Positions 3,369 through 39,004 of a stretch of DNA of 39,004 nt are shown in pieces (position 1 is the stretch's first letter; each line of letters begins with the position of its first letter). Source of the DNA: a virus; the IMG/VR virus record IMGVR_UViG_3300036791_000971, positions 1-39,004 of that record; one strand, given 5' to 3'. The position numbers and the translations under genes are program-made. The notes below the pieces were generated by a model. It worked only from the letters and a program-made list of their open reading frames with translations, made no database searches and was not told the origin of the DNA.

Positions 3369-3386
3369 GTGCTAGACGTCTAGCAC
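3369..3386. promoter_or_regulatory. Operator-like palindrome, copy 1
   Basis: A perfect 18-bp palindrome, GTGCTAGACGTCTAGCAC. The 14-bp core GCTAGACGTCTAGC recurs at 28668-28681 and 36031-36044. It sits between the divergent XRE gene and a small rightward ORF, so it could control either. The shared core near three regulator genes points to one regulon. Confidence 0.7.
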
Positions 3387-25904: not shown

Positions 25905-26045
25905 GACGATGACGAGCTCGAGATCACCGAATCGAACCCCGACTGCCAGTGCAGCCGGTGCGAAGCGCTCCGCCGGAATCGCCGCCTCGTCGAGCAAGCC
26001 TGGCTAGAGGGACTCGACTACGACCCCAGCGCTATCGGCGTCTGA
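25905..26045 (+). other. Coding-like rightward stretch without a usable start codon
   Basis: In this frame the DNA reads DDELEITESNPDCQCSRCEA-LRRNRRLVEQAWLEGLDYDP-SAIGV then stop, with consistently GC-rich third positions like real genes here. No ATG, GTG or TTG lies in frame just upstream. It occupies the 145-bp gap between TerS and the ABC/GNAT gene, on the opposite strand, overlapping the end of the latter by 28 bp. It may be a decayed gene, one with a sequencing error, or one using a rare start. Confidence 0.4.
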
Positions 26046-27148
26046 ACCGGCAACCCGAACGCCTTGGCCTCGGCCCGGGTCGCTGCCGGGCCCACGTACT
26101 CGAAGCTGACCGTCAGCCGCCGTGACGAGCCGTACTTCACCCGGCCCTCGTGGGCACCTTTCATCGACGGCATGCGGTCGATGTGGAAGTTCGCCGAGTG
26201 GGCCGCCGCGTTGATGAGTGCCGGGGCGGAGGACACGCCACGCCAGCGCCGCCCAGCAGCCTTTTGCAGCGACGCCTCGAACGTGAGCAACGCGATGCCG
26301 ATGCCGATGCCCTGATAGTCCGGCAGAACAACGACACGGGCACCGCGCTGCATGTTCTTGTAGCCGATTTGGGCGAGCGACGAGCAAAACACCGCCGCCT
26401 TGCCGTCGATCAGCCCGACCAAACAGAACGACGACTTAGGAATGTCGTGATCGTTCAGATAATGATGACGCTTGAAGTAACGCCACGTCGCGGCGGTTGT
26501 GCGATAGACCTCAAGGACGATGCGGGGTCGGGGTTGAAGAGACCTCCACGTGAAAAGGTCCGCGCCGGTCTCGTAAATCCAATCCGGCTGGAGCCACGCC
26601 ACAACGTCGTCATGGCACGAAGCGATCACCAACCTGCGCCCGGTCGCTCGCTGCCGCAGATGCTTCGCCACTGCTGCGGCACCGATGCGGGCGACAGTGC
26701 GGTCGACCACCGACGTGAACTCGTCGATGACGATGGGATCGGCGTCGGAGCAGAGCAGCCGGGCCACAGTGGCGCGGAACTGTTCGCCGTTCGAGAGCGT
26801 CTGGAACGGGCGCAGCCAGGACGGCGGCGAGCTGAACCCGACCGAGGACAGCACGCCGGTGACCTCTTGCACTGCCATCCCTGCCGGGAAAGCGTCGAGT
26901 ATCGACGCCTCGGCATCCCACTCCAGCGGCGGCTGTTCGCCGTAAAGCTGGCGCAGGATCGTGCTCTTGCCGGACCCGGACGGGCCGATCAACGCGCCGA
27001 TCTGCCAATCCTTGTCCTCGATGGGCAACTCGGCATGGACCTTGAACGACCGGCGTTCCTCGCGTGCCATGTCGAACTGTCCCTCGACTTGGAGCACCCG
27101 CACCGACCGCTGGATCGGCGACTCGACTAGGAGATCAACGCTCGGCAA
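26018..27148 (-). CDS. ABC-type ATPase fused to GNAT acyltransferase (COG2401-like)
   Basis: A 376-aa fusion. The N-terminal half is an ABC ATPase: Walker A GPSGSGKST (55-63), signature LSNGEQ (118-123), Walker B IVIDE (139-143), and H-loop H179 in IASCHDD. It has no membrane segments. The C-terminal half is GNAT-like, with FKRHHYLND (about 225-233) and the acyl-CoA motif VVVLPDYQGIGIGIALL (272-288). Such fusions are known (COG2401) but poorly understood. The GNAT part recalls Mom-type base-modifying enzymes, so a DNA-modification role is possible. The probable start is TTG at 27148, overlapping ParB-like by 22 bp; ATG 27 codons later is the alternative. Confidence 0.8.
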   Translation of the reverse strand: MPSVDLLVESPIQRSVRVLQVEGQFDMAREERRSFKVHAELPIEDKDWQIGALIGPSGSGKSTILRQLYGEQPPLEWDAEASILDAFPAGMAVQEVTGVLSSVGFSSPPSWLRPFQTLSNGEQFRATVARLLCSDADPIVIDEFTSVVDRTVARIGAAAVAKHLRQRATGRRLVIASCHDDVVAWLQPDWIYETGADLFTWRSLQPRPRIVLEVYRTTAATWRYFKRHHYLNDHDIPKSSFCLVGLIDGKAAVFCSSLAQIGYKNMQRGARVVVLPDYQGIGIGIALLTFEASLQKAAGRRWRGVSSAPALINAAAHSANFHIDRMPSMKGAHEGRVKYGSSRRLTVSFEYVGPAATRAEAKAFGLPVQTPIALGS

Positions 27149-28666: not shown

Positions 28667-28682
28667 TGCTAGACGTCTAGCA
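28667..28682. promoter_or_regulatory. Operator-like palindrome, copy 2
   Basis: TGCTAGACGTCTAGCA, a perfect 16-bp palindrome sharing the 14-bp core with copies at 3371 and 36031. It lies upstream of the HicA/RHH genes (leftward) and overlaps the -35 of a possible rightward promoter into the structured-RNA region. Confidence 0.7.
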
Positions 28683-29528: not shown

Positions 29529-30278
29529 ATGGCAACCGCTGCAACCCAGCGAGCAACAAAGCCCAAGCCGCCGAACTACTCGGAGGTCCTGGACGTTATT
29601 CGTTCAGTCACCGCCGAGTCGGATATGTGGCACTTGTCGGACACTGTCCTACGCATCGTCCCCACCGGAATCACGGGGCTGCGTGACATTGTCGATGCGG
29701 CAAGTTCGCAAGGCATTTTGGGAAAGCTGAGCGTCGACACGCTCCGCGCTTACCGCGCCACTGCTGAGCATTGGCCCGCCGATAAGCGTATGGATGGCGT
29801 GTCGTTCAGTGCCCACCGCGAAGCCGAAAGGCTGAACGCTGGACTCACCGCTGAGCGTCAACTACTCACGAACGTCGCGAAAGCGAACGGCGGAAAAATC
29901 ACCGTCGACGCAGTCCGCGCCGCCGTGAGGGCGAAGCAAGGCAAGCAAGCGAGACAGCGCCCGCCCCGTGCAGGCGCTGCACCCGCAGCAGCGCCCGGAC
30001 CCAAGGGCCCGGACGCCGCACTCGCGGACTTGAAAGACGGCGGCAAGCAACTGATTGCCGCCATCGACAAGAACACGAGCAACGCCGACCTCGACAAGCT
30101 GCGCAAAGGTACATCGAACGTTCTCGGACACATTGAGAACTTGAAGATGAAGCGCGCCAACGCGAGGAAGTCGCCCGCCCCAACAGCGTCAGCTCCCAAG
30201 AAGAAAGTCGCCCCGACGCCGAGCAACGGCAACGGAGCGAAAAAGCCCGTTAAGGCGGGCAATCTTCGCGGACTCTAG
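29529..30278 (+). CDS. Basic, Lys/Ala-rich protein heading the CobS/CobT-like cluster
   Basis: A 249-aa protein. Residues 1-130 look globular and helical (PPNYSEVLDVIRSVTAES, TLRAYRATAEHWPADKRMDG, VSFSAHREAERL), possibly a DNA-binding fold. The rest is Lys/Ala/Pro-rich and likely disordered, with a helical segment (LADLKDGGKQLIAAIDKN, LDKLRKGTSN). The ATG at 29529 is chosen for its GAAAGGAAAACGAAC leader, typical of this block; an earlier in-frame ATG overlaps the terminator. It precedes the AAA+ and VWA genes in the same direction and may be a substrate or DNA-binding partner. Confidence 0.7.
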   Translation: MATAATQRATKPKPPNYSEVLDVIRSVTAESDMWHLSDTVLRIVPTGITGLRDIVDAASSQGILGKLSVDTLRAYRATAEHWPADKRMDGVSFSAHREAERLNAGLTAERQLLTNVAKANGGKITVDAVRAAVRAKQGKQARQRPPRAGAAPAAAPGPKGPDAALADLKDGGKQLIAAIDKNTSNADLDKLRKGTSNVLGHIENLKMKRANARKSPAPTASAPKKKVAPTPSNGNGAKKPVKAGNLRGL

Positions 30279-30284
30279 AGCGCT

Positions 30285-30337
30285 CCGACGCAACCCCATC
30301 CCCGTGCGAGCGGGGGTGGGGTTGAACCGGATCACTC
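30285..30337 (+). repeat. Intergenic hairpin element, member 2
   Basis: CCGACGCA, then a 13-bp stem (AACCCCATCCCCG 30292-30304 with CGGGGGTGGGGTT 30311-30323), then GAACCGGATCACTC. The same order and near-identical stem recur at 31320 and 33749. No U-run follows. It lies between the basic-protein stop and the AAA+ gene leader. Confidence 0.75.
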
Positions 30338-30390
30338 CGGACGTGCGAGCACACAACGTGCCCGCCCGTTAATCAGAAAGGAAAGTGAGA

Positions 30391-31314
30391 ATGTCTATTC
30401 CCACTTTTGATATCAGCACCGTTCCCGACCGCGATCGGGAGCGGGTGGCAGGATTGATCCCCAACCCCGCCATCGCCGACGCCTACGTGCATCGGACGAT
30501 TAAAGGTTGGGAAGATTTTGCCATTCTCGACAAGGCGCTAGAAAAGGGCCGCAACGTCATGCTCATGGGTCCCACGGGATCGAGCAAGACAACTGTGTTC
30601 CGAGCCTACGCCGCAGCCCGCGGGTTGCCGTTTGTTGTCGTCGAATCAAACGCCGCAATGGACTACTCCGTAGTCGTCGGACGCACCATGCCCGACGAGG
30701 CCGGCGAAGTCCGCTTCATTGACGGCGATTTCACGCTCGTTGTCCGCTACGGCGGCATCGTGCTCATTGATGAGATCAACATGGCACACCCACGCGTCAC
30801 CGCCGCTCTGCACGGCGTGCTTTCCGTTATGTCACGGATGAGCGTGCCCGAAGCAGGTGAGGTTGTGCATGCGGGCCACGGCGGACACGACCACATCACC
30901 CACGATGACGGACGTGTCGAGTGCGAGGGCGAAGCCCAGCCGATTCTGTTCGGCGCCGCTTACAACCCCCGCTATCAGGGCGTCGTGCGTCTCAACGAAG
31001 CACTCAACAACCGCTTTGCCGACCCAATCGAGTGGGACTACGACCGTGCCGTTGAGGCACAACTTGTGTCGTCGTCCCGCTTGCTCGATATGGCGGCGAA
31101 CGTGCGAGCGCTCGATGAAATCCGCACACCTTGCAGCACGAACATGCTGCAAGAGTTTGAGGAGCACGTCGAGGATTTCGACATGGAAATGGCTGAGTAT
31201 TTCTTCACGATGCACTTCGCGCCAGAAGAGAGGGCGCCGATTGCACGTGCGCTCGAAGCCAACCGTGCCGCCATCGCCCGTGAGCTGAACGCGAGCGTTG
31301 CAGTCACTGCGTGA
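30391..31314 (+). CDS. CobS/MoxR-like AAA+ ATPase
   Basis: A 307-aa AAA+ protein: Walker A GPTGSSKTT (60-68), Walker B GGIVLIDEIN with D127/E128, a sensor-1 Asn in FGAAYNPRYQG, and an arginine-finger region LNEALNNRFADPIEWDYD. It lacks extra domains. This is the MoxR/CobS type that powers VWA partners to remodel or insert metal into targets; the next gene encodes such a partner. ATG 30391 follows AAAGGAAAGTGAGA. CobS-like genes occur in other phages, but the target is unknown. Cobalamin synthesis is not implied. Confidence 0.85.
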   Translation: MSIPTFDISTVPDRDRERVAGLIPNPAIADAYVHRTIKGWEDFAILDKALEKGRNVMLMGPTGSSKTTVFRAYAAARGLPFVVVESNAAMDYSVVVGRTMPDEAGEVRFIDGDFTLVVRYGGIVLIDEINMAHPRVTAALHGVLSVMSRMSVPEAGEVVHAGHGGHDHITHDDGRVECEGEAQPILFGAAYNPRYQGVVRLNEALNNRFADPIEWDYDRAVEAQLVSSSRLLDMAANVRALDEIRTPCSTNMLQEFEEHVEDFDMEMAEYFFTMHFAPEERAPIARALEANRAAIARELNASVAVTA

Positions 31315-31319
31315 GCAGC

Positions 31320-31413
31320 CCGACGCAGCTCCGTCCCCGTCTTAAACACGGGGACGGGGCTGAACCGGATTACTCACAAGTATCCCCGGACGGCGGATCA
31401 ACCGATCCGCCGT
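31320..31413 (+). repeat. Intergenic hairpin element, member 3, plus second hairpin
   Basis: CCGACGCAG, then a 14-bp stem (AGCTCCGTCCCCGT 31327-31340 with ACGGGGACGGGGCT 31348-31361), then GAACCGGATTACTC. A separate 10-bp perfect hairpin follows (ACGGCGGATC 31390-31399 with GATCCGCCGT 31404-31413), just before the ribosome site of the VWA gene. It is nearly identical in plan to members at 30285 and 33749. Confidence 0.75.
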
Positions 31414-31439
31414 TACTCACTGAAAGGAAAGTGAGAAAC

Positions 31440-33293
31440 ATGACACCCATTAACGGTGTGCGTCGTGGGTCCACCCACGTTGACTTAGACGAGTTGACGT
31501 GGGACCCCGCCGACGTGCTGCGGCTAGCCCGTCTCGCTCGCGAGATTCGGCTGACCGATCAAATCCTAACGCCGGACATGGACACAGTATCTGTCGTCGA
31601 GGATGGCCCAGCGCCAGCCTGGACAACGCTTGAGGGCGATCACGTTACGTTCGCCGCCAAAAAGATGCCGCCTCCAAACAGTCCGATCAACGTTGCGATT
31701 TGGCTCGGCACCAACGCTCACGAACTTGGGCATGTTCTGTTCACTCCCCGAACGGGCTCGCGTTTACTCGCCCGCCTGTTCGACGCGGACAGAACGTTTA
31801 TGCCCGGATTGGCGAAGCTGCACAACATCGTTGAGGATCAACGCGAGGAGCGTTTGCTCATCGCCCGATTCGCGCCGTGGCGTGCCTACTTGATAGGCGC
31901 GCTGTCGCACCATCTCGTCGTGGACAGTGAGTCCGCATGGCTTTTGCTTTGCGGACGCACGTGGCTCCCCGATGCGATGCGTGCCGATGCGCGTGCAAAG
32001 TTCGTGACGACCCGCAGCGAGGCAATCGCCGCCAAGGTCGCAACGCTGATAGGAAACTACCAGCGCCTCACGGACCCGGGTGAGAGCGAGCATGACGAAG
32101 CGTTCGCCATCCTTGACGAACTGTGGAACATCTTCTGCGACAAGCTGCCGCAGATTCCCACAGGTTGCACCACCGTCATCAGCGACGGCGACCCCGACAC
32201 GGATTCGCCCGAAGCAAGCGACACGCCACCCGCCGCCGACGAGCAATCGCCGCAAGCGGACAGCGACGCGAGCGAGGGCGACGATGGACAGGGCGAGCCC
32301 GCCGCTGACAAACAGGGTGACTCGGACGGAAACTCCGCCGGAGACGCTGACGCGAAAGCTGACGCGCCGACGAGCGGAGAAAGCCGGACGAACAGCACGC
32401 CGCCGTCAACGTCAACGCCGAGCAACGTCAACGACCCGAAGCAAGTCCGCGAGGACCTGCGGAAAGCCGCCGAGGATGCTCTACGCAATGACAAGGATGC
32501 GCGGCGCGACCTGGACAACGTGTTAGACGCACTGCGGCAATCGTCGCATCGCGACGGAGTCCAGGGCGAGGTCCCGCTTGGCGAGTTCAAAGAGCCGACC
32601 GACGCGGCCCGCAAACTTCATCACGAAGTTGGCGACGCGTTGCTCGACCTGAAAGACGAAACCGAGCCGGGGTGGCAACGGAGAACAGACAGCGGACGTT
32701 TGAACACCCGCCGTTTGCTCACGTCAAACGCCCCGTATGACGAGCTGTTCGACCGATTCCAGCCGGGGGAAATGGATGCCACCGATTTTGAGGTCGCACT
32801 GTTGCTCGACACATCGAGCAGCATGCGCCGCTACGTCGAGGCATTAGCGGAGGCAACGTGGGCCGTTCAGCAAGCATCGGACGACCTCGAAGCCGCCGTG
32901 ACGATCATCACCTGGAACGGTGACGAGCACCGCGTCGTTACAGAGTCGGGGCAACGCCCCGATGGACGCGTGTTCGTCCCTGCCGCTTGGGGAGGAACTG
33001 ATCCCGTCTCAGCATTGAACGAGACGTTCAGACTCCTTGCCGACTCGCAGGCCCGTAACCGCATCATGCTCATTCTCACGGACGGGCAATGGAGCAACGA
33101 GGAGCAAGCCGCCAGAGTGATCGCCGCCATGAACGAAGTGGGAATCACCACTGCGTTCGCGTTCCTCGGAGCCGAAAACCTGTTTGACGGCAACTCGCAC
33201 GGATGCGCCGTGTCGGAGCGGATCGACAGACCCCAGGGTCTCGCGTTGATGTTCCGCCGCATCGCCGCCGAGCGAATCAAGGCCGCTTTCTAA
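31440..33293 (+). CDS. CobT-like VWA protein with HELGH metallopeptidase-like domain
   Basis: A 617-aa protein. The N-terminal domain has H94-E-L-G-H98, a zinc metallopeptidase motif, and HNIVEDQREERLL (128-140), which could give a third acidic ligand; this pair is typical of CobT-like and other MoxR-partner proteins. Residues 245-335 are an acidic, disordered linker. A helical region precedes the C-terminal VWA domain with a complete MIDAS: D457-x-S459-x-S461, T520 (GGTDP) and D548 (LILTDG). Start ATG 31440 has GAAAGGAAAGTGAGAA upstream. It likely works with the AAA+ neighbour. Whether the peptidase site is active is open. Confidence 0.85.
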   Translation: MTPINGVRRGSTHVDLDELTWDPADVLRLARLAREIRLTDQILTPDMDTVSVVEDGPAPAWTTLEGDHVTFAAKKMPPPNSPINVAIWLGTNAHELGHVLFTPRTGSRLLARLFDADRTFMPGLAKLHNIVEDQREERLLIARFAPWRAYLIGALSHHLVVDSESAWLLLCGRTWLPDAMRADARAKFVTTRSEAIAAKVATLIGNYQRLTDPGESEHDEAFAILDELWNIFCDKLPQIPTGCTTVISDGDPDTDSPEASDTPPAADEQSPQADSDASEGDDGQGEPAADKQGDSDGNSAGDADAKADAPTSGESRTNSTPPSTSTPSNVNDPKQVREDLRKAAEDALRNDKDARRDLDNVLDALRQSSHRDGVQGEVPLGEFKEPTDAARKLHHEVGDALLDLKDETEPGWQRRTDSGRLNTRRLLTSNAPYDELFDRFQPGEMDATDFEVALLLDTSSSMRRYVEALAEATWAVQQASDDLEAAVTIITWNGDEHRVVTESGQRPDGRVFVPAAWGGTDPVSALNETFRLLADSQARNRIMLILTDGQWSNEEQAARVIAAMNEVGITTAFAFLGAENLFDGNSHGCAVSERIDRPQGLALMFRRIAAERIKAAF

Positions 33294-33308: not shown

Positions 33309-33388
33309 GCACCCCGTTCGCGGGGTGCTCCCCGATCCCGCCGCTTCGAGCAATCGGAGCAGCGGGATCGGGGACGGGAACTCTCCCG
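33309..33388 (+). repeat. Triple hairpin between VWA gene and small genes
   Basis: Three stems in a row: GCACCCCG-TTCG-CGGGGTGC (33309-33328), a 13-bp stem TCCCCGATCCCGC (33329-33341) with GCGGGATCGGGGA (33362-33374), and CGGGA/TCCCG (33375-33388). No U-tract follows and the next ribosome site lies 10-20 bases on. It may protect mRNA ends or slow transcription; the sequence differs from the other intergenic elements. Confidence 0.65.
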
Positions 33389-33748: not shown

Positions 33749-33806
33749 CCGACGCAGCTCCATCCCCGCCGCATGCGGGGGTGGGGCTGAACCGGGAAAT
33801 GCCCGG
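33749..33806 (+). repeat. Intergenic hairpin element, member 4
   Basis: CCGACGCAG, then a 14-bp stem (AGCTCCATCCCCGC 33756-33769 with GCGGGGGTGGGGCT 33775-33788), then GAACCGG continuing into a CCGGG-AAATG-CCCGG hairpin (33792-33806). The stem is almost the same as at 31327. A ribosome site and ATG 33824 follow. Confidence 0.75.
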
Positions 33807-35792: not shown

Positions 35793-35987
35793 TTACTTCG
35801 TCTTTGCGTACAGTTCCAGTGCAGCGATGACCGCGTCCTTGAGCGTCAAGCCCTGCTGCACGGCCTTGACGCGCACCCGGCGGTGCAGTTCAGACGGCAC
35901 CGGCACGTTGATCGCAACGACGTTCTCGTCGTCACGCTCAGCGATACGGGCCGCTCGCTTGCGTTGTGCCACTGTCGTGTTAGCCAT
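35793..35987 (-). CDS. Ribbon-helix-helix regulator
   Basis: A 64-aa protein. A basic head (TVAQRKRAARIAERDDE) is followed by an RHH core: strand NVVAINVPVPSE, helices LHRRVRVKAVQQ and LTLKDAVIAALELYAK. Such proteins bind DNA as dimers at palindromes or repeats. Its promoter carries the palindrome copy 3 in the spacer, so self-repression is a natural model. The ribosome site is weak. It heads the ASCH/HNH operon. Confidence 0.8.
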   Translation of the reverse strand: MANTTVAQRKRAARIAERDDENVVAINVPVPSELHRRVRVKAVQQGLTLKDAVIAALELYAKTK

Positions 35988-36022
35988 GCCGCCGATGATA
36001 GCGCAAAGCACACTGCGTGCGC

Positions 36023-36050
36023 GTCATACTGCTAGACGTCTAGCAGTCAG
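36023..36050 (-). promoter_or_regulatory. Promoter of RHH operon with operator palindrome (copy 3) in the spacer
   Basis: Read leftward, CTGACT (36045-36050) and TATGAC (36023-36028) are 16 bases apart. The spacer is filled by the palindrome core GCTAGACGTCTAGC; the full 20-bp palindrome ACTGCTAGACGTCTAGCAGT spans 36028-36047. The start codon lies about 29 bases after the predicted start site. A bound dimer here would block polymerase. Confidence 0.6.
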
Positions 36051-37139: not shown

Positions 37140-39004
37140 TCACTGGACTTCACCTGCGGTTTTGTCCGAGGCGCCGCCATCGGAGGACTCAGATTTGGCC
37201 CCACTGGGAACACCCATTGCGACAAGGGCTTTCTCGACTTCGTCGGGAGTCAGACCGGGCTTGCTCCAGGCAGTGCGGCGGGGGAACCCGTAGGTGCTCA
37301 CCGGCGCTCCGATGGCCTCGCGGGCCCGCTTGAGCGTGCGTTCGGAGTAGTCGCCCGCTGCCGCCGCCTTGATGTCCCGAGAGTCGACGACCGGGTTGGC
37401 GTTGAGGAAGTCGCTCAGCCAGTCCTCGGCTTCCTTTTGCTGGGAGCGGGCCTCCGTGCTGCGCCCGGCGTCGTGGAGGGCGTCGAGGATCGAGCGCTTG
37501 GAGTCACCGAGCCAACGCATCTTGCCGGTGGTGATGGGCAGCCCGTCGTCGGGGTCCTTGCCCGCCACAGCTTCGACGATGTCGAACAGCAGCGTCGGCA
37601 GGTCGGTGCGCCCCAGGTTGTTCTTGGGCTCGCCGAGCAGACGCATGCCCGGCTGTTCGGGGTCGAGCATCGTGAACAGCACGGAGCGGGCCACCGCCGC
37701 AAAGGCCCGTGACGCCATGAGCATCGTGAGCGGGTCGTTCGACGTGCCCTTGTTGACATGGATCAACCCGAGTATCGAGTAATGGCCCCGGTCGGCGGCC
37801 TCGCTCAGCGGTTCGAGCCCCTGCCGTACCTCGGCGTCCCGGTGCGTGTCAAGGGCGGCGTCGAGGCGACTGATGATGGGGTCGAGCAGGACGAGGGCGG
37901 CGTCGATGTTCACGGCGGCCTGATGCAGCCCGCCGATGTCGTAGGGCAGCGTCAACGACGCCGCCTGCCCGTCCGCCGCTGTCACCGTCAGCCGATGGAT
38001 GTGCGTGAGGTCGGCCCCCGCCACGATCAGCCTCGGGGCGATGGTGTGCTCCCACGAATCCTCGTTGGCAGCTATCACGACGCGCCTCGGCTTGCCGTGC
38101 AGCTCGCCTCCGAGCTGGCCCGTGCTGATCTTCGCCGCCAGCGTGTAGGCGAGGATCGACTTGCCGATCCCCTCCCTGCCGCCGAGCAGGGTCAGGGCAC
38201 CGAGCGGGATGCGGTCGTTCCAGAGCCAGCGCACCCGGCGAACTATGACGTTCTCGGTCGATGGCGTGTGGACCTGCCGCCCCGGCGTCGAGCTGCTCGA
38301 GCTGGGGGGTGCGGCCCCGTTCGTGGTGGTGGCCCGCTTGGCGATCTCTTTCCCGGCGATCCAGGTGGCCGCGTCGTCGACCTCGTCGCCCCTCCCCTCC
38401 CCGGCGGTGAGCTGCTCCCAAATGTCCTTGACCTGTGCCATCGCGTGCCGCAGGTCGAGCGCCTCCATGCCAAACGCCCACGAGAGTGCGTAGTGCATGG
38501 CGTCGTGACGTGACCCGGTTTTGGCAGCGGACAGCTCGTGCAGCTTCTCCCCGAACGCCTGCATGGCGGCGAAGCTGGACGTGCCGGGGCTGGCCTCGAT
38601 GAAGCGAACCGTCTCGCCCGGCGTAGCCCGGGGAGCATCGCTGAGGTTCGACGGCGTGAGCAGGGCCGTCATGGACCCCGGCAGCGGCGTCGCCGCCTTG
38701 AAGTCGCCCTCGATCCAGTGCCAACCCGCCCCCACGTGCTCGTTGCCCGGCGCGACCACCCATCCGTTGTCCGAGCGCACGTCAACGCCGGGCCAGGGCG
38801 AGCGGTTCGAGTAGAGGGCGTCGGGCGGCTTGGCGAACAGCACGTTCGCTCCGCCCGAGGGCGAACGCCAGGCCGCGGTGGGGCGCCACGTGTGCTCCCG
38901 GGCGAGGAGCTCGTAGGTCGCAGCGCCGGGCTTGCCGTCTTTCACGTCGAAGTCGAACACCCCGTGCCCGCCGGACCCGGGCACGAACGCCACGACGATC
39001 TGTG
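37140..39004 (-). CDS. Prim-pol domain fused to RepA-type (AAA_25) helicase
   Basis: The main body of a 702-aa gene that begins at 371 across the circle junction. The prim-pol part (to about 200) has D99/D101 in FDFDVKDG, SPSGGANVLF (S131-N135) and GVDVRSDNGWVVAPGNEH. The usual His of the SGG.H motif is Asn, so catalysis may be altered. After a Ser-rich linker (about 305-330) comes a RecA-like helicase: Walker A GGREGIGKS (356-364), Walker B ALVLLDP (D456), and FTMLDPEQPG. It would prime and unwind DNA for phage replication; no DNA polymerase gene is seen. The stop is at 37140. Confidence 0.88.
   Translation of the reverse strand, partial: QIVVAFVPGSGGHGVFDFDVKDGKPGAATYELLAREHTWRPTAAWRSPSGGANVLFAKPPDALYSNRSPWPGVDVRSDNGWVVAPGNEHVGAGWHWIEGDFKAATPLPGSMTALLTPSNLSDAPRATPGETVRFIEASPGTSSFAAMQAFGEKLHELSAAKTGSRHDAMHYALSWAFGMEALDLRHAMAQVKDIWEQLTAGEGRGDEVDDAATWIAGKEIAKRATTTNGAAPPSSSSSTPGRQVHTPSTENVIVRRVRWLWNDRIPLGALTLLGGREGIGKSILAYTLAAKISTGQLGGELHGKPRRVVIAANEDSWEHTIAPRLIVAGADLTHIHRLTVTAADGQAASLTLPYDIGGLHQAAVNIDAALVLLDPIISRLDAALDTHRDAEVRQGLEPLSEAADRGHYSILGLIHVNKGTSNDPLTMLMASRAFAAVARSVLFTMLDPEQPGMRLLGEPKNNLGRTDLPTLLFDIVEAVAGKDPDDGLPITTGKMRWLGDSKRSILDALHDAGRSTEARSQQKEAEDWLSDFLNANPVVDSRDIKAAAAGDYSERTLKRAREAIGAPVSTYGFPRRTAWSKPGLTPDEVEKALVAMGVPSGAKSESSDGGASDKTAGEVQ
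38878..39004. repeat. Terminal direct repeat, right copy (circular overlap)
   Basis: Identical over all 127 bases to positions 1-127. Removing one copy gives a 38,877-bp circle in which the primase-helicase gene is intact. Confidence 0.95.

Follow-up and report, generated by a model that had tools for sequence, protein, structure and literature searches.

The viral record IMGVR_UViG_3300036791_000971 (39,004 bases, analysed over its full length and called the window here) carries three consecutive plus-strand genes at positions 29,529 to 33,293, which code for a basic protein, a MoxR-type AAA+ ATPase and a protein that combines a von Willebrand factor A (VWA) domain with an HExxH motif. We propose that the products of this triad form a machine of three parts which remodels proteins at the expense of ATP, includes its own metallopeptidase and would act early, around replication. 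The proposal is tentative and we assign it a probability of about 0.45. It is carried by the conservation of the HExxH site and of the gene pair in other viruses, by the NorD-like fold of the VWA protein model and by the location of the pair on the replication side of phage genomes.

Conservation and domain structure of the AAA+-VWA pair

With an AAA+ family alignment, 80 viral loci were fetched, three of which lie on contigs that stop before the next gene. In all of the other 77 the AAA+ gene is directly followed by a gene for a VWA protein, and in all 77 this protein has an HExxH motif (in one case within a split frame). As these loci were chosen by their AAA+ gene and not by the motif, the retention of HExxH is far beyond chance; from residue frequencies, we estimate a chance of approximately 2% for one such motif in 617 residues. 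An earlier note on this DNA, made from the sequence alone, had proposed to look for loss of the HELGH residues in homologs and for a lack of association between the two genes. No loss was encountered, and the two genes remain adjacent wherever the contig continues. A previous scan with a VWA alignment had used the HExxH motif as a pattern and was excluded from this count. When viral contigs were scanned with the single VWA protein no match was obtained, while the AAA+ protein and the family alignments succeeded as queries.

After removal of near-copies, 43 VWA proteins were aligned with that of the window, to which they are 19-50% identical. H94, E95, H98, N129, E132, D133 and R135 are invariant in all 44 proteins, as are the residues of the metal-ion-dependent adhesion site (MIDAS), D457, S459, S461, T520 and D548. 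The full MIDAS and the HELGH motif, which the earlier note had recognized in the window protein, are thus invariant at their key positions.

The gene for the VWA protein (31440..33293, plus strand) codes for 617 amino acids. Its frame is open from 31311, where the opening falls into a strong hairpin. ATG 31440 is preferred and is likely to be the start, being preceded by GAAAGGAAAGTGAG and in agreement with the numbering of H94 and E95; GAAAGGAA precedes all five plus-strand starts that were examined. A structure model was computed from the 44 sequences (mean predicted local distance difference test score, pLDDT, 85; predicted template modelling score 0.79). The N-terminal metallopeptidase-like domain (residues 8-240; 31461..32159) was delimited by the topology of this model and by comparison with DUF2201_N. 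It is modelled with a pLDDT of about 88-97 as a helix, three strands, the HExxH helix, a helix and the EDQR helix. In a zincin that uses a glutamate as ligand, these elements would follow in the same order. HELGH (residues 94-98; 31719..31733) is the putative zinc-binding and catalytic motif, and NIVEDQREE (residues 129-137; 31824..31850) supplies E132 as the proposed third metal ligand. That EDQREE could complete a metal site had been suggested in the earlier note, and E132 indeed proved to be invariant and to lie in a helix after HExxH in the model. With HExxH and a glutamate in a later helix, both invariant in the family, the sequence has the features of a gluzincin-like zincin. According to the model, the domain is a candidate zincin-like metallopeptidase domain, which would bind zinc and cleave proteins.

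An acidic low-complexity linker with low pLDDT follows (residues 241-332; 32160..32435). A predicted finger (residues 388-441; 32601..32762), supported by the alignment, the model and the fold matches, is placed right before the VWA domain; its residues G419 and N422 are invariant and SGRLN is found in most members. The MIDAS begins with DTSSS (residues 457-461; 32808..32822) and is completed by T520 and D548. In a fold search of the PDB with the VWA model, the five best-scoring chains are all NorD, solved as part of NorQD complexes (E 7e-10 to 3.5e-8). Their alignments span 242-269 columns, so that more than the bare VWA domain is aligned. The MIDAS domain of midasin ranks next, and the PDB matches listed are VWA/MIDAS structures. 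Full-length viral structural matches include Brevibacterium phage Cantare, haloviruses and many uncultured phages. The protein has both the complete MIDAS (DxSxS-T-D) and the finger-VWA fold of a NorD-type partner.

The AAA+ protein (30391..31314, plus strand; 307 amino acids) is a NorQ/CbbQ/midasin-like member of the MoxR type and matches Pfam AAA_5 with 3e-18. Its Walker motifs, described as intact in the earlier note, were located by family alignment as GPTGSSKT (Walker A, residues 60-67; 30568..30591) and as a Walker B ending in LIDE, within LIDEIN (residues 124-128; 30760..30774). Together with the sensor and arginine-finger residues they are kept across the AAA+ family.

The basic protein and the relation to described systems

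The basic protein is encoded by a real open frame of 249 amino acids (29529..30278, plus strand). It consists of a confidently predicted helical domain (approximately residues 17-140), a P/A-rich linker, a helical stretch (residues 160-212) and a disordered basic tail, which in most members ends in a conserved motif of the type (D/N)(L/M)R(G/D)L. Its gene is upstream of the pair in 13 of 13 close relatives, and the three genes stay together in all of them despite changing neighbours. Their VWA proteins fall into a single clade (support 100/98). In locus L090, the pair is preceded by a gene for a more distant version of the basic protein. Residues 66-146 weakly match the LmbU family (NF038070; 9 of the 13 members, best E 1.5e-4, 21.8 bits). 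LmbU proteins are actinomycete regulators which bind DNA via a helix-turn-helix (PMC6510168), and the phage protein is likely to bind DNA as well. In contrast to the LmbU regulators, it has a disordered basic tail with a conserved end, and its score is far below the family cut-off. Its model has no fold match in the PDB, no family above noise was found in PHROGs and Pfam, and tblastn found no homolog in the public phage set. The earlier note had described a basic, possibly DNA-binding protein ahead of the pair; its position is confirmed by the relatives, while the distant match to LmbU is what speaks for DNA binding. Small zinc proteins downstream had also been considered as part of the system. 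This is not supported, as the CxxC protein at approximately 33589 has a homolog in only 1 of the 13 relatives.

The AAA+ protein matches the NorQ/CbbQ profiles with approximately 1e-24 and midasin more strongly, compared to 4e-10 for CobS; by this measure it is much nearer to NorQ/CbbQ than to CobS. A GRT...DG stretch after the pore region resembles, by eye, the helix-2 insert of NorQ. The NCBIfam model for CobT (TIGR01651) is matched neither by the window protein nor elsewhere in the record, and only 2 of the 44 aligned proteins match marginally (best E 0.014). Weak matches of the VWA domain to Pfam CobT_C occur in 16 of the 44 (best 4.6e-4), and the partner CobN is absent from the phage. Because of the proximity to NorQ/CbbQ, the lack of a CobT match in the window and the absence of CobN, the name CobS/CobT is misleading on sequence grounds and unsupported as a family assignment. 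What had been described as a pair of CobS/MoxR and CobT-like VWA proteins thus persists as a MoxR-type AAA+/VWA pair under a different family name.

The pair shares with NorQ/NorD (9QHD, 9QH6) and CbbQ/CbbO a MoxR AAA+ protein and a partner in which N-terminal domain, linker, finger and MIDAS follow in the same order. It is not NorD proper, as the window protein has HExxH in its N-terminal domain and its gene lies outside a nor operon context. The motif is lacking in the three NorD or NorD-like proteins examined (two from rhizobial plasmids and one from Aliiroseovarius). It is present in a halovirus protein, a Microcystis phage "CobT", an archaeal plasmid vWA protein and cellular DUF2201_N proteins, and in most of these it is followed by N-x-x-(E/A)-D-x-x-(I/V)-(E/N). 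The DUF2201_N proteins, which are annotated as "putative metallopeptidase" and also have a VWA-like part, are cellular, and their profile similarity to the phage protein is weak. Pfam PF13203 (DUF2201_N) itself is not matched by the VWA protein. A profile comparison gave P 0.0014 and a score of 29, where 30 column shuffles scored no higher than 21.9 and unrelated profiles no higher than 15, which hints at a possible kinship of the N-terminal domain with DUF2201_N. When cellular genomes were scanned with the VWA family, a single contig of a metagenome-assembled genome was hit and a host origin was not found; nearly all genomes sampled from the phylum of that assembly match the VWA part only. 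On a plasmid of Halomicrobium mukohataei (L167, 5001-7832), a pair of an AAA protein and an HELGH-vWA protein, possibly a cellular relative, is found beside protein kinases and a HEAT-repeat protein.

As a kind, the motor-peptidase pair is already known from many phages, where it is uncharacterised. Group 2.2 jumbo phages have been described to carry a MoxR-vWA pair in which the vWA protein begins with a metallopeptidase domain, and this pair was proposed to act in virion assembly (Iyer et al. 2021, PMC7824862). Going by that description, adjacent MoxR AAA+ and vWA genes with an N-terminal metallopeptidase are common to both, but the window phage is small (approximately 39 kb), has the additional LmbU-like gene and carries the pair on the replication side. 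A "cobST" pair has been reported for many tailed viruses (Liu et al. 2021, PMC8651126). Gordonia phages GMA6, DalanDe and ScarletRaider and Brevibacterium phage Cantare have their "cobST" genes in the same order, and the proteins fetched from them keep HExxH and MIDAS. They differ from the window in that the VWA proteins are only 20-27% identical and that no basic gene was found there; a cobaltochelatase reading is unsupported. The three-gene module with the basic LmbU-like protein, found in one clade of small phages, is apparently undescribed. As far as our searches reach, the invariance of the site over 77 loci, the match to a NorD-type finger and VWA domain and the replication-side placement across three clades are also new.

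Replication-side location, proposed mechanism and alternatives

In 33 other loci, the neighbours of the pair are mainly genes for DNA primase/helicase, DnaB, primase, single-stranded DNA-binding protein (SSB), DNA polymerase and ribonucleotide reductase (RNR), and there are no structural proteins among the 25 commonest neighbour families. Fifteen loci have a DnaB-like helicase in the vicinity of the pair, and 14 of these have a primase as well. The triad clade carries large replication-type and SSB-like genes that it has in common with the window. Annotated Gordonia and Brevibacterium phages agree with this placement, and in halovirus Hardycor1 the pair is part of a replication/accessory module (PMC7911831). 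As such neighbourhoods occur in three deep clades, an early role is favoured over one in virion assembly. In the literature on cyanophages, no usable statement on the timing of cobS/cobT expression was found.

The proposed mechanism is modelled on NorQD, where NorD inserts its finger into the pore of the NorQ ring and docks on this ring with its C-terminus, and where its VWA domain is twisted relative to its N-terminal domain as ATP is turned over (PMC13036017). The phage AAA+ protein would likewise form a hexameric ring, with the finger of the VWA protein in its pore and the C-terminal helix docked on it. Cycles of ATP hydrolysis would twist the VWA domain against the N-terminal domain and tug at the acidic linker. 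An acidic residue of the client may be gripped by the MIDAS, and the client stretch that is exposed would be cut at the N-terminal zinc site (H94, H98 and E132, with E95 as the catalytic residue). In the triad clade, the machine probably has a DNA-bound partner in the basic LmbU-like protein, which would act either as an adaptor to a nucleoprotein target or as the client itself. Most likely, the machine would work at an early stage close to replication and not in the virion. It weighs against this proposal that the basic protein does not reach the curated LmbU cut-off of 125 bits and that most other phages with the AAA+-VWA pair do not have it.

Best placed among the alternatives, although unlikely, is a maturation function without proteolysis as in NorQD and CbbQO, by which a metalloenzyme is opened or an inhibitor cleared while HExxH just holds or delivers the metal. 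The nearest solved relatives, NorQD and CbbQ, indeed insert iron or reactivate Rubisco. Its client would be a host enzyme in the window phage and, in a clade of large phages, the neighbouring class II (adenosylcobalamin-type) RNR. In 35 of the 80 loci (L092-L148), the gene for this enzyme (best PDB match 1l1l) lies no more than 6 kb from the pair, and a family search found it elsewhere in further large records. However, the loci with an RNR belong essentially to a single clade of large phages and hence represent one event, so that the link cannot account for the window phage, and the family search found no class II RNR in the small-phage group of the window or in GMA6. For this reason, class II RNR was also demoted as a client of the whole family. 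Moreover, plain holding of a metal does not need an invariant catalytic glutamate.

A narrower version of the proposed machine, which we consider quite unlikely and rank behind maturation, is a metalloprotease directed to DNA sites. The DNA-bound basic protein, via its C-terminal motif, would hand clients to the NorQD-like motor and peptidase, and nucleoprotein complexes would be cleared or remodelled for phage replication or transcription.

It is more doubtful still that the pair is a chaperone-peptidase for virion assembly or maturation, as Iyer et al. (2021) put forward for pairs composed in the same way, drawing a parallel to p618/p892 of Acidianus two-tailed virus (ATV). ATV ORF892 is among the structural matches of the VWA model (E 9e-7), but this function is at odds with the replication genes beside the pair in three deep clades and with the lack of structural families among its commonest neighbours, and in the window the pair is on the strand opposite to the structural genes.

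Even less probable is a function in host takeover or counter-defence, with the machine stripping or cutting a host DNA-bound complex early in infection and the basic protein as a guide. The early/replication location, the match of the basic protein to LmbU and the position of the triad in an opposite-strand cassette of lower G+C within a variable region would fit, but PADLOC found no convincing defence family on the window and many phages carry the pair without the basic protein.

Least probable of all, CobST-like chelatase subunits that borrow CobN from the host and raise cobalamin supply (Liu et al. 2021) have the naming in public records, the weak CobT_C matches and the class II RNR neighbours of one clade in their favour, but are contradicted by the CobT and AAA+ profile results and the absence of CobN from the phage, and leave the conserved HExxH site unexplained.

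We suggest that, for the phage AAA+-VWA family, the peptidase label is better supported than the cobalamin label. Should the cobalamin label be wrong, numerous "auxiliary metabolic gene" assignments in phages would have to be corrected. That the pair is so widespread among tailed viruses suggests that its early function is a general one, which is now mostly labelled as cobalamin biosynthesis. Although MoxR/VWA machines are widespread, few of them are understood (NorQD, CbbQO, RavA-ViaA and midasin), and in the phage machine, whose peptidase site is apparently intact, the motor would be coupled to a cutting step. As Gordonia phages with the pair are in culture, its function can be tested.

The window genome, its hairpins and its palindromes

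An exact 127-bp repeat is found at positions 1-127 and 38878-39004, and the last frame of the window continues into its first. Given this terminal repeat, which is probably an assembly overlap, the window is very probably a complete, circularly assembled phage genome of about 38.9 kb. Its DNA has no megablast match among phages. Structural and packaging genes are on the minus strand, and the triad belongs to a plus-strand cassette at approximately 29-34 kb, which has a lower G+C content (0.60-0.64) than most of the rest of the window (mostly 0.65-0.68). Adjoining the terminase genes, a minus-strand gene (26018-27148) codes for an ABC-ATPase-like protein with a C-terminal GNAT acetyltransferase part (PHROG 11143, function unassigned).

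Both gaps within the triad contain intergenic hairpins (plus strand), one between the basic and AAA+ genes (30291..30324; z -4.4 for the intergenic stretch; flanks CCGACGCA / GAACCGGAT) and one between the AAA+ and VWA genes (31326..31362; z -8.0 for the intergenic stretch). Further strong hairpins of the cassette are found at 33329-33374 and 33755-33789, and the z values of all four range from -4.4 to -8.0. Three of the cassette hairpins have common flanks, CCGACGCA and GAACCGG, and show paired base changes in the stem. Hairpins are also predicted in many intergenic gaps of the relatives. No Rfam family was found for the cassette hairpins.

A perfect 16-bp palindrome, TGCTAGACGTCTAGCA, occurs three times in the window (3370-3385, 28667-28682 and 36030-36045). 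In the relatives, nine copies of TGATAGACGTCTATCA lie within 13 kb of L009 and approximately four in each of L014, L019 and L025, and L016 has seven copies of the version TGACATTCGAATGTCA. The palindrome core, AGACGTCT, has the sequence of the MetJ box. In eight relatives a copy of the palindrome, in some of them a near copy, is present at the junction of the AAA+ and VWA genes. A small protein of the ribbon-helix-helix (RHH) type is encoded at 35793-36011 (minus strand) in the window and at 6259-6501 in L009, 6158-6361 in L010 and 3938-4207 in L025. It has no sequence match in the PDB. An automated iteration of the RHH family strayed onto frames of the complementary strand, and only recognisable RHH proteins were used. 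In most relatives the RHH gene and the triad are in divergent orientation, and in four phages the start of the RHH gene is 5-19 bp from a copy of the palindrome. From this arrangement, it seems that the RHH protein represses a stoperator-like palindrome regulon and also regulates itself.

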